In this document: piece after piece, positions 3,546 through 19,487 of the stretch
How the letters are laid out: each line of letters begins with the position of its first letter
How positions within the stretch are numbered: the first letter of the stretch is position 1
Source of the DNA: a virus
Virus record (IMG/VR): IMGVR_UViG_3300042879_001415
Span: 1-23,673 of that record
Reading direction: 5' to 3' (one strand)
DNA length: 23,673 nt
Notes under the pieces: generated by a model
Database searches by the model: none
What the model was told of the DNA's origin: nothing
The model's input: the letters and a program-made list of their open reading frames with translations, nothing else
Position numbers and translations under genes: made by a program

Positions 3546-3700
3546 CTCGCCGCCGTTGCCCCGCCGCGAAGCTAATTCTTGCCGAGCTTCAAGCCGACAA
3601 GGCCCAGGCTCGATACAACCGCACGCGCTCCCACAAGGCACGCTTTGACCTGATAGCCGCCCGTGCTGCTGCTGTAGCCGCAGCGCGGTGGAGGCGATAG
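3542..3700 (+). CDS. Small basic Ala/Arg-rich protein
   Basis: A 52-residue frame starts at an ATG overlapping the methyltransferase stop (ATGA) and ends at a TAG whose last base begins the next gene's GTG. The protein is strongly basic, beginning MTRRRCPAAKLILAELQADK and ending in an Ala-rich helix closed by RWRR. Perfect fit between the two neighbours, with the next gene's Shine-Dalgarno GGAGG inside its last codons, argues that it is translated. I recognise no family. A nucleic-acid-binding accessory role is possible from charge alone. Confidence 0.6.
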   Translation: MTRRRCPAAKLILAELQADKAQARYNRTRSHKARFDLIAARAAAVAAARWRR

Positions 3701-4041
3701 TGGCGCGCAATAAGTACGGTGCCCGCAAGACCGTTGTGGACGGCATCACGTTTGACAGCGTGCGAGAGGCGAACCGCTGGCGCGATCTGCAGGCCCTGGA
3801 AAAGGGCGGCCAGATCAGCCAGCTAGAGCGGCAGTTGACCTTTGTGCTTGCGCCTGCGGTCAACCTTTACGGCGAGAAGCGCAAAAAGACGGCGCTCCGC
3901 TATGTGGCGGACTTTCGATATTTTGATGGCAAAGCTGGCCACTTCATTATCGAGGACGCCAAAGGCCGCGACACGCCCGTCTCGCGCATCAAGCGCCACC
4001 TCATGAAGTCCGTTCACGGAATAGATGTGAGGATTAGCTAG
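3700..4041 (+). CDS. DUF1064-family phage protein, PD-(D/E)XK nuclease-like
   Basis: The protein (113 residues) begins NKYGARKTVVDGITFDSVRE and continues with LEKGGQISQLERQ, then YVADFRYFD and FIIEDAKGRDT. This is the DUF1064 pattern, found in many phages. The family is regarded as nuclease-like: the E of FDSVREA, the D of VADF and the ED-K of IEDAKG could form a PD-(D/E)XK-type active site. It may act as a small structure-selective nuclease in phage recombination or replication, a reasonable but untested role. The GTG start at 3700 is chosen because GGAGG lies five bases upstream; an in-frame GTG at 3688 lacks such a site. It is followed directly by the next ATG. Confidence 0.78.
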   Translation: MARNKYGARKTVVDGITFDSVREANRWRDLQALEKGGQISQLERQLTFVLAPAVNLYGEKRKKTALRYVADFRYFDGKAGHFIIEDAKGRDTPVSRIKRHLMKSVHGIDVRIS

Positions 4042-4311
4042 ATGCCCAGGCCCAAAGGCTTCAGCCCCTCCCCGGAGACGCGCGCTAAGACAAGCGCAGC
4101 CTTGAAGGCAAGAATGCAAGACGACCCAGCCTTCCAGGCGCAAGTGCTGGAAGCACTCACGCGGGGCCGTTCCTGCGTCAAGACCCAAGGCCGCCCGCCG
4201 CGCAAGCGGCCGATGCGAGGCACGCCGGAATCGGGCCTATTCGAGAAGATCCGCAAGGCGCTGGGCTCTGCCGCCGCGCACGCCGAGTTGAGGAGGGGAG
4301 CGAATGGCTAG
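4042..4311 (+). CDS. Small basic protein with a NUMOD3-like motif
   Basis: The N-terminus contains GFSPSPETRAKTSAALKAR (residues about 6-24), which resembles the NUMOD3 DNA-binding motif (pattern S-x-E-T-R-x-K-x-S-x-A-x-K) best known from homing endonucleases. No GIY-YIG or HNH catalytic domain is present in its 89 residues, so it is not itself a homing endonuclease as it stands. The middle carries a basic segment (GRPPRKRPMR). It starts immediately after the preceding stop, with GAGG about ten bases upstream, and overlaps the replication gene by eight bases. It may be a small DNA-binding protein; the motif match is short and could be chance. Confidence 0.6.
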   Translation: MPRPKGFSPSPETRAKTSAALKARMQDDPAFQAQVLEALTRGRSCVKTQGRPPRKRPMRGTPESGLFEKIRKALGSAAAHAELRRGANG

Positions 4312-5131
4312 GATCAGAACCATAAAGCCGGAGTTCTTCACCAGCGATGACACCTGTTCACTGAGCCCGCTTGCCCGGCTGCTCTACGTCGGCTTGTGGT
4401 GCGAGGCCGACAGGGAAGGGCGGCTTGTCTGGGCGCCGCGCACGTTCAAGCGCCGCTATTTGCCGGAAGATGACTGCGAGATCGAAACTGTCTGCGAGGA
4501 ACTAAGGGATGCCGGACTAGTCGTCATGTATGGCGATACCCTGGCGCATATCCCCACCTTCCTAAAGCACCAGCACGTCAATCCGCGCGAGGCTGCATCG
4601 ACCCTACCAAGCCCAGACGACGACGCGTCAGGCACGCGTCAGGCACGCGTCAGTGACGCGCAGGTAGGAAGGGAAGGAAAGGAAAGGGAAGGAAAGGAAA
4701 AACAATCTAACGATTGTTCCGCCGATGGCGGGAAGGCAAAGCGCAAGTCGAAGTTGCCGGAAGATTGGGCTCCGATTGCCGAGCAACTGGAATACGCCAG
4801 AGCGCAGGGCTGTGCAGACCCAGCCGACACCGCCGCACGGTTCCGCTTGCACCATCAGTCCAAAGGCACGCTTGCGCTCGATTGGGACAAGGGCTTTCAG
4901 TACTGGTGCCGCAACGAGAGCAATTTCCGCCGCCCGCAGGCCGGTAAATTTGACCGTACAGAGGCTTTGCCGACTTCCCGCGACGGAGACAGCCAATGGA
5001 GCGCGAGATTGCGTGGCTGGCGTCCTGGGCGCTTCTGGAATCGAGGCGATTGGGGGCCAGATCCGACCGAGCCGGGGTGCAGGGCTCCCGCCTCTGTCCT
5101 GAGCAACTGGCGAAGCGAGGCCATGCAATGA
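4304..5131 (+). CDS. Phage replication initiator-like protein
   Basis: The N-terminal domain (residues about 1-92: ARIRTIKPEFFTSDD, then LARLLYVGLWCEADREGRL, then the RYLPEDD and CEELRDAGLVV segments) is the winged-helix-like domain shared by many phage replication proteins that act like lambda O. A charged linker (about 100-150) is followed by a helical C-terminal domain (LPEDWAPIAEQLEYARAQG through FQYWCRNESNF) and a Trp-rich tail (RLRGWRPGRFWN). Such proteins bind the phage origin and recruit host or phage helicase. The linker-coding DNA holds direct repeats, a homopurine run and a palindrome that look like an origin. The start has a very strong AGGAGGGGAG. No helicase loader of the DnaC or lambda P type follows. 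Confidence 0.75.
   Translation: MARIRTIKPEFFTSDDTCSLSPLARLLYVGLWCEADREGRLVWAPRTFKRRYLPEDDCEIETVCEELRDAGLVVMYGDTLAHIPTFLKHQHVNPREAASTLPSPDDDASGTRQARVSDAQVGREGKEREGKEKQSNDCSADGGKAKRKSKLPEDWAPIAEQLEYARAQGCADPADTAARFRLHHQSKGTLALDWDKGFQYWCRNESNFRRPQAGKFDRTEALPTSRDGDSQWSARLRGWRPGRFWNRGDWGPDPTEPGCRAPASVLSNWRSEAMQ
4623..4666 (+). repeat. Iteron-like 11-bp direct repeats
   Basis: The unit ACGCGTCAGGC occurs perfectly at 4623-4633 and 4634-4644. It occurs with the last two bases changed at 4645-4655, and a degraded fourth copy (ACGCGCAGGT) starts at 4656. Each full unit contains the palindrome ACGCGT. The repeats are tandem, close to one helical turn apart, and lie in the linker-coding part of the initiator-like gene. 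They are probable binding sites for that protein. Confidence 0.6.
4623..4720 (+). other. Candidate phage replication origin inside the initiator gene
   Basis: Three elements follow each other without a gap: the 11-bp direct repeats (4623-4666), a homopurine run of GGGAAGGAAA-type repeats (about 4666-4702), and a palindrome AACAATC-TAAC-GATTGTT (4701-4718). Lambda places its origin within gene O in the same general order: iterons, then an asymmetric purine-rich and AT-rich zone that melts. The seen structure supports an origin; that it works as one is an inference. The purine tract also encodes a Gly-Lys-Glu repeat in a linker where sequence is free to vary. Confidence 0.5.
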
Positions 5132-17909: not shown

Positions 17910-18756
17910 TCCTAAGTACGTCTCGCAGCAGCAGACGCAGAGCAACGTCAACACGGCGGTTGCGAACGCTTACCTGAACCGCGTCAACCAGTACGGGCCG
18001 GACGGGTCTAAGACCTATGCCGTGACGGGCTCGCAGGACGTGGGCGGAACGAACGTCCCGATCTGGTCGGAAACGACGCAGTTAAGCCCTGGCCAGCAAA
18101 AGATTTACGATAGCCAACAGCAGCTAACGCAGGGCACGTCGGATCTGGCCAACCAGTACGTTGGCCGCATTGGCGATGCCACGTCCAAGCCCTACAGCTA
18201 TGACGGCCTCGCCCCGGCTCCGACCTATAACGAGGACTACCGGCGCCAGCAGTTGCAGGCCATTCAGGACCGCAACGCGCCGCAGATGCAGCGCGACCGG
18301 GACGCCCTCAACCAGCGGCTTGCCAACCAGGGCATCTCGCTAGGCACCGACGCCTGGAAGGCCGCACAGGACGATTACAGCCGCTCCGTAAACGACTTTA
18401 GGCTTGGGGCGGATGTGCAGGCGGGCAACGCCGCCGCGCAGCAGTACGGACTGGAGAGCAACACCCGCGACCGCGCGATCCAAGAAATGACGGCGCTACG
18501 GACACAGCCGATCAATGAGGTGGCGACGCTCCTTGGAACGGGCAACGGCGTACAGCAGCCGCAGTTCAGTCAGGTAGCGCAGACGCAGGTAGCGCCGACC
18601 GATGTGAGCGGGAACTACTGGAACCAGTACCAAGGCCAGATGGCACAGCAGGCGCAGCAGCAGAAAAGCTCGGATGCCGCGATGGGCGGACTGTTCGGCT
18701 TGGGCAGCGCGGGAATCAGTGGTGCCGCCAGCTACTTTGGCTTGGCTGCGTTTTGA
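17872..18756 (+). CDS. Conserved podovirus virion protein (probable internal/ejection protein)
   Basis: This 294-residue Gln/Ala/Asn-rich protein belongs to a pattern seen in many podoviruses: an N-terminal SAPPAPDPKYVSQQQTQSN, then NQYGPDGSKTYAV, LSPGQQKIYDSQQQL and QMQRDRDALNQRLANQGISL. It continues with GVNDFxxGADxQAGN-like and DRAIQEMTALRTQPINEVAT, then FSQVAQTQVAPTDVSGN. The C-terminus is Gly/Ala-rich and hydrophobic (GGLFGLGSAGISGAASYFGL), compatible with membrane insertion. It is probably ejected or lines the DNA channel, by analogy with P22/T7 internal proteins; the exact job is unknown. Confidence 0.72.
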   Translation: MGSKSASAPPAPDPKYVSQQQTQSNVNTAVANAYLNRVNQYGPDGSKTYAVTGSQDVGGTNVPIWSETTQLSPGQQKIYDSQQQLTQGTSDLANQYVGRIGDATSKPYSYDGLAPAPTYNEDYRRQQLQAIQDRNAPQMQRDRDALNQRLANQGISLGTDAWKAAQDDYSRSVNDFRLGADVQAGNAAAQQYGLESNTRDRAIQEMTALRTQPINEVATLLGTGNGVQQPQFSQVAQTQVAPTDVSGNYWNQYQGQMAQQAQQQKSSDAAMGGLFGLGSAGISGAASYFGLAAF

Positions 18757-18764
18757 TCGCGCAC

Positions 18765-19487
18765 ATGAAAAACCCTGTTTCCAACCACAAGAACATCGCC
18801 TTTCAGTTCAGCGGCGGGAAGGACAGCCTCGCGCTCGTCCACCTGTTGCGCCCGCATTGGGATCGACTGACGCTCTACCATGTCGATACTGGCGACTTGC
18901 TGCCGGAAGTCCGCGAGATCGTGGATAGCGTCGAAGCTATGGTGCCATCGTTCGTCCGCATTGAGACGCAGGCGGCTGACTGGAACGAGCGCTTCGGCCT
19001 GCCTAGCGATCTTGTGCCAAGCTCCTGCACGCCTTTGGGTGTGAAAATCGGCATGAGCGACCGCCGCCTCGTAGATCGTTTCGAGTGCTGCGCGTTCAAT
19101 ATCATGGTGCCGATGCACAATGCGGCTCTGAACGACGGATGCACGCTCGTCATCAGGGGCACAAAGCGCGCAGACATGAAGCGGCTCCCGGCTGAAAACG
19201 GGCCGACTGGTCTTGGATATGACCTGTGGCTGCCGCTTCTTGAATGGTCTGACGCTGATGTATTCGCCTATCTCCGTCAGGTTGGCGCTCCGATCTGCCG
19301 CGTCTACGAAAACGGCGTTCAGTCGCCCGAGTGCGCGACGTGCCCGGCTTGGTGGAGCGAGGGCAGGGCGGCGTACCTTGCCAAGTATCACCCGGACTTG
19401 AGCGCCTCCTACCACGCAAAGCTTGCGACGGTAGCCGCTGAAATCTCGCCCTTGTGGGCTCATCTGCAGCGGGAGATCGCCGGATGA
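18765..19487 (+). CDS. PAPS reductase-like PP-loop ATP pyrophosphatase
   Basis: The PP-loop FSGGKDS (residues about 15-21) and following LALVHLL place it in the PAPS reductase/ATP sulfurylase-like family of adenylating enzymes. Downstream are LYHVDTGDLLPEVREIVDSV and RGTKRADMKRLP. There is a possible metal or thiol pair FECCAF and an ECATCPAWW box near the C-terminus. Family members reduce PAPS, activate sulfur donors or modify bases in DNA and RNA; phage copies are mostly of unknown substrate, and DndC-like DNA phosphorothioation is one idea. It lies alone among virion genes, with no sulfur or DND partners, which is odd. The ATG is used; a TTG at 18753 overlapping the preceding stop would add four residues. 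Neither start has a clear Shine-Dalgarno. Confidence 0.78.
   Translation: MKNPVSNHKNIAFQFSGGKDSLALVHLLRPHWDRLTLYHVDTGDLLPEVREIVDSVEAMVPSFVRIETQAADWNERFGLPSDLVPSSCTPLGVKIGMSDRRLVDRFECCAFNIMVPMHNAALNDGCTLVIRGTKRADMKRLPAENGPTGLGYDLWLPLLEWSDADVFAYLRQVGAPICRVYENGVQSPECATCPAWWSEGRAAYLAKYHPDLSASYHAKLATVAAEISPLWAHLQREIAG

Follow-up and report, generated by a model that had tools for sequence, protein, structure and literature searches.

The linker-coding part of a phage replication initiation gene carries a row of phased short repeats, a purine tract and an inverted repeat, and the sequence comparisons make it very probable that this element is a phage replication origin embedded in the gene for the protein that starts replication, with a layout like that of the lambda origin and an organisation like that of RepA_N plasmids. 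The DNA analysed, called the window below, is the whole of positions 1 to 23,673 of IMG/VR virus record IMGVR_UViG_3300042879_001415 (23,673 nucleotides). The gene, its domains and the element are located as follows.

4304..5131, plus strand: phage replication initiation protein, 275 aa (PHROG 16167, E 3e-35; PHROG 1408, E 4e-32)
4304..4618, plus strand: N-terminal winged-helix domain, residues 1-105 (AlphaFold2 pLDDT >90 over most of it; invariant residues across relatives)
4623-4628, no strand assigned: iteron core 1, ACGCGT, read GAC GCG TCA = DAS
4634-4639, no strand assigned: iteron core 2, ACGCGT, read ACG CGT = TR
4645-4650, no strand assigned: iteron core 3, ACGCGT, read GCA CGC GTC = ARV
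4656-4661, no strand assigned: iteron 4, degenerate, ACGCGC (Tandem Repeats Finder, 3.9 copies of the 11-bp unit)
4666-4702, plus strand: strand-asymmetric purine tract of the GGAAGGGAAGGAAAGG type, a 37-nt run encoding GREGKEREGKEK
4701-4718, no strand assigned: inverted repeat AACAATC-TAAC-GATTGTT with 7-bp arms, read in the sequence
4751..4918, plus strand: C-terminal DnaT-like domain, residues 150-205 (PF17948 DnaT, E 0.0084, under the curated cut-off)

The whole cluster, 4623-4718, sits in codons of the disordered linker of the initiator. An earlier note on this DNA had claimed three 11-bp ACGCGT repeats, a homopurine stretch and an AACAATC/GATTGTT palindrome, and all of them were found, the repeats being accompanied by the degenerate fourth copy. 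The repeat unit, ACGCGTCAGGC, is 11 bp long with a spacing of 11 bp in the window and has a 6-bp palindromic core (consensus SACGCGTS). Tandem Repeats Finder gave its top two scores in the 23.7-kb window, 63 and 64, to 4623-4664 and 4669-4700. When the codons of the window gene were resampled with the protein kept, at least three ACGCGT were obtained in 0.04% of the resamplings and 37 or more purines in a row in 0.085%, and the window's own ACGCGT copies already cover all three reading frames. Only 0.24% of the 40-mers in the window are less stable than the tract together with the palindrome, and the tract is a putative unwinding or strand-capture element.

The window protein belongs to both PHROG profiles listed, each of which is annotated 'replication initiation protein'. 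In the AlphaFold2 model, linker residues 110-144, nearly the whole part encoded by the repeats and tract, are disordered (pLDDT <50), and the helices of the C-domain lie at residues 159-208. What the family conserves is the N-terminal winged-helix domain, which putatively binds the iterons; in the window protein this domain had no Pfam match, and searching the PDB with its sequence gave no significant match. The DnaT-like domain, a putative helicase-recruitment part, is swapped in relatives. The nearest N-domain in a named genome, that of Enhydrobacter aerosaccus, matches the query alignment at 81% identity, which makes an alphaproteobacterial host plausible. A DUF1064 gene (PHROG Holliday junction resolvase) at window positions 3688-4041 lies just upstream of the initiator gene, as a DUF1064 gene likewise does in a relative on a Bradyrhizobium plasmid (L472). 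At 18753-19487, among late genes, we noticed an ORF like a PAPS-reductase-type protein with an SGGKDS motif.

Further evidence comes from relatives in IMG/VR, of which 106 were confirmed and 80 kept, giving 65 non-redundant linkers. ACGCGT occurs in nearly every one of them, with spacings of 11 bp (88 times) and 10 bp (29 times), and was observed 223 times versus 21.5 +/- 4.2 by synonymous resampling (maximum 35 in 300 trials). The copies are distributed over the three reading frames as 68/66/56, where they are read as DAS, TR or RV, and they are far denser in the linker (0.0286 per bp) than in the rest of the ORF (0.0004). The iterons precede the purine run, the longest run having a mean of 34.5 nt versus 13.9 expected. 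The N-domain is conserved among these relatives and the C-terminal parts are mostly unrelated to each other. It is clear from the alignment of relatives, a check that the earlier note had proposed, that the repeats and the tract are retained between flanking domains that have drifted apart. Because ACGCGT is in excess, occupies all three frames and is dense only in the linker, the linker peptide (DAS, TR, RV; GREGKGKEGK) reads as the shadow of the DNA. The sequences show that selection acts on the linker DNA itself, which is tied to this initiator, and that the linker owes its present form to this selection. The repeats, their spacing and the tract are kept whatever the reading frame and whichever C-domain is attached, and so, more weakly, is the following inverted repeat.

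The same pattern could be thought a by-product of selection on the protein for a charged, flexible, low-complexity linker, helped by replication slippage, since the segment is predicted to be disordered and of low complexity and short repeats can be amplified by slippage. However, a single DNA word appears equally often in each of three frames and yields different peptides, and synonymous resampling yields counts that are tenfold too low. In one relative (L068, gene start 5001) the tract is inverted, with pyrimidines on the coding strand (TTCCTTTCCTTTCCTTTCC), and hence encodes a different peptide; repeats are also found in codons of a folded domain in the sister clade described below. The frame and synonymous tests refute a purely protein-level or slippage explanation as a full account, and we consider this alternative extremely unlikely. 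The suggestion of the earlier note that DNA function may have shaped the protein is, in turn, supported by the three-frame use and the excess over synonymous recoding.

The viruses with this initiator make up a large family of phages that has been little studied. In a sister clade, which was sampled by protein and is hence free of motif bias, a second array of three to four ACGCGT 11 bp apart lies in codons of the folded N-domain (FSRVLDALTTRGF; L391-L470, L098, L100, L105, L107 and L110; ORF nt 190-240). At least three ACGCGT were present in the N-domain codons of 60 of the 61 members, 183 copies being observed versus 5.5 by synonymous resampling, and the purine tract was present in 61/61. 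Gammaproteobacterial cultured relatives (HK639, Louie, yong1 and others) have TGCAAG/CAGTGC repeats and a CTGATTC tract; in gammaproteobacterial L084-L092 and L220-L299 this tract (peptide PDSLNLIPDSL) replaces GGAAGG. In actinobacterial relatives (Charlie, prophiGD102-1, Fishburne, Streptomyces prophages) the repeats are TGCGC, TCGCGA or others, and the tract is of the GGGAACAG type. For motifs picked after viewing the sequences, the counts were 293 versus 33 expected for CTGATTC, in the two frames where it creates no stop codon, and 100 versus 3.7 expected for the actinobacterial tract, in three frames. These motif-specific tests were used instead of a plain 6-mer repeat scan of the distant relatives, which is insensitive at degenerate iterons. 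The prophiGD102-1 initiator (L096) has 11-bp TGCGCGGATTT-like repeats in N-domain codons (nt 1677-1716) and again in the linker (nt 1871-1965), followed by the actinobacterial tract.

The iteron type tracks the N-domain tree, with 11 changes versus 55.9 after shuffling; we take this as inheritance and not as specificity, because shared ancestry alone gives such clustering. Lambdoid members carry the gene with cII on one side and the gene of a P- or DnaC-like loader on the other, and members of the family were also found on circular plasmid records. A broader reading, for which the chances seem to us about even, is that of a superfamily in phages of Proteobacteria and Actinobacteria with a self-encoded origin. 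In one clade the origin would extend into codons of an N-domain helix, so that origin DNA and the domain reading it constrain each other, and the clade-specific tracts (GGAAGG, CTGATTC and the actinobacterial one) would make up a new class of elements that serve unwinding or strand capture in a sequence-specific way.

The inverted repeat was examined in the 40 nt or less past the tract. The mean perfect stem was 4.9 versus 3.8 in a control from the same gene (Wilcoxon 2e-10), and stems of at least 7 were found in 16% of relatives versus 0% in two control stretches. The stem sequences vary by phage (CAGATAC/GTATCTG, CCGCTAC/GTAGCGG, AACAATC/GATTGTT). The case for the hairpin is weaker than that for the iterons and the tract, because additional inverted iteron copies (CGCGTC...GACGCG) supply part of the stem signal. 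Helix stability was compared at 95 loci, where 52% of the tract windows were among the least stable 5%, versus 14% of random positions.

Additionally, we scanned for the repeats without regard to the gene. The 31 phage records searched (30 IMG/VR contigs, possibly fragments, and one isolate, from Vibrio) contained 63 forward-strand matches of ACGCGT-N4/5-ACGCGT, all of them inside the initiator ORF; 61 were placed by coordinates and two lie in the initiator gene of the Vibrio isolate. The reversed pattern, used as a control, gave zero matches in the same records, and the exact pair was absent from 4 of the 31. A protein-independent scan of IMG/VR for triple repeats found at least 78 loci, and among the 78 newly fetched loci listed, 68 were N-domain ORFs (worst E 5.7e-12). 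The ten listed triple-ACGCGT loci outside the initiator family are L099, L102, L111, L122, L130, L138, L143, L148, L162 and L169.

The array might instead be an operator within the gene, through which the initiator or another regulator controls expression of the gene and not the start of replication. Operators, too, can consist of short palindromes that are repeated in phase and recognised by a winged-helix protein, and such a role could go together with origin function. Yet the array lies 320 bp into the coding sequence, away from the gene start, with the purine tract and often the inverted repeat after it, and its association with replication-initiation proteins holds for phages of many hosts; we therefore regard control of expression in place of replication as unlikely. 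The element might also be a recombination site, a conserved block of homology for the exchange of C-terminal domains among phages. These domains are radically different around the conserved block, and domain exchange has to break in or near the linker. Such a block does not account well for repeats phased at 10-11 bp with a clade-dependent sequence, nor for the recurrence of the array inside the N-domain of one clade, where there is no domain boundary, and a recombination site seems very unlikely. C-domain exchange may follow from the element without being what it is for.

Absence of the repeats beside the replication protein, which the earlier note would have counted against its reading, is confined to a chromosomal subclade (L336, L339-L343) and to isolated relatives, among them L052, where the ACGCGT motif is also missing. 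The subclade, with N-domains 72-74% identical to the query alignment, keeps the purine tract and has no ACGCGT iterons. Its members are located in bacterial chromosomes (Enhydrobacter, Asaia and Rhodospirillales assemblies) and are possibly prophage remnants; L340 resembles a repressor-initiator cassette in chromosomal surroundings and is perhaps a remnant. GC skew, computed for one 38-kb relative, showed no switch at the element, its maximum being about 6 kb away.

If the element is an origin, it could work in the following way. The N-terminal winged-helix domain would bind the helically phased ACGCGT iterons, and the resulting nucleoprotein complex would strain the adjoining purine tract and inverted repeat, so that they melt and a single strand is exposed. 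The variable C-domain, DnaT-like in the window protein, would then recruit a host or phage helicase loader and DnaB, and replication would start.

A likely replication origin is supplied for hundreds of phages and prophages, no origin being annotated in those of their records that were read. Its signature, placed in the linker of a MARIRTIKP-type initiator, is a set of clade-specific phased repeats with an asymmetric tract after them. The element is also a strong natural case of a DNA function dictating protein sequence. We found no publication on this element in this family in the open-access literature, which is weak evidence of novelty. A lambdoid phage, Pseudomonas phage MD8, reportedly has repeats within the gene of its O-like gp56; the accessible part of that report (PMC8508860) gives neither the repeat sequence nor a comparative analysis, and the two are likened by description only. 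RepA of mycobacteriophage Miko was experimentally necessary and sufficient for prophage replication (PMC7157519); we dropped it as proof for the present family, as it does not match the N-domain profile.

The RepA_N plasmids offer an experimentally studied likeness, described here from the accessible part of the report on pSK41 (PMC5703833). There Rep attaches through its N-domain to four boxes inside rep, and the middle segment, whose codons are those of ori, is a linker; a Rep protein from which this linker is deleted in frame rescues Rep-defective plasmids that carry ori, and the C-domain is genus-specific. RepA_N initiators (pSK41, pTZ2162; PF06970) resemble the present family in this layout, with a winged-helix N-domain, central Rep boxes, an ori-encoded linker and a host-specific C-domain. 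In the present family the repeats similarly lie in mid-gene, between a conserved N-domain and a variable C-domain. The top PDB folds returned by Foldseek for the N-domain include RepA_N structures 4pt7, 5kbj and 4pta, as weak matches (E 0.03, TM 0.41-0.48), and neither the window protein nor any of the 32 proteins scanned matched the PF06970 profile at E 0.01. The accessible text does not mention a tract of the GGAAGG type for RepA_N, whereas one is present here, and the hosts are mainly Proteobacteria and Actinobacteria here and Firmicutes for RepA_N.

Homology to lambda O was likewise rejected: hmmscan found no PF04492 match in the window protein (lambda O itself, 5.7e-36), hmmsearch gave E 0.55 and hhalign a probability of 0.4%. 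Sequence comparison links the initiator family to neither lambda O nor RepA_N. The layout, in contrast, agrees with the likening to lambda made in the earlier note, as iterons, purine tract and inverted repeat follow in the order read in lambda O. The lambda origin lies inside initiator gene O, and in both genes the element is encoded between the N-terminal DNA-binding part (putative here) and the C-terminal part; in HK639 and other lambdoid relatives the gene occupies the position of lambda O. The details differ. The lambda iterons, annotated at 18 bp, are inverted repeats of 18-19 bp bound by O dimers, whereas the window has an 11-bp unit with a 6-bp palindromic core. The asymmetric stretch of lambda, AAAAGAAAAAAGAAAAGA, is nearly all A, and strand asymmetry has been noted for its AT-rich region (PMC5043065), whereas the tract here is a GGAAGG-type purine run. 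The second array inside a folded domain sets the sister clade apart from lambda. Taken together, these comparisons suggest that lambda, the RepA_N plasmids and the present family have one layout without detectable sequence homology, a likeness that bears on the question of whether intragenic origins have arisen by convergence.
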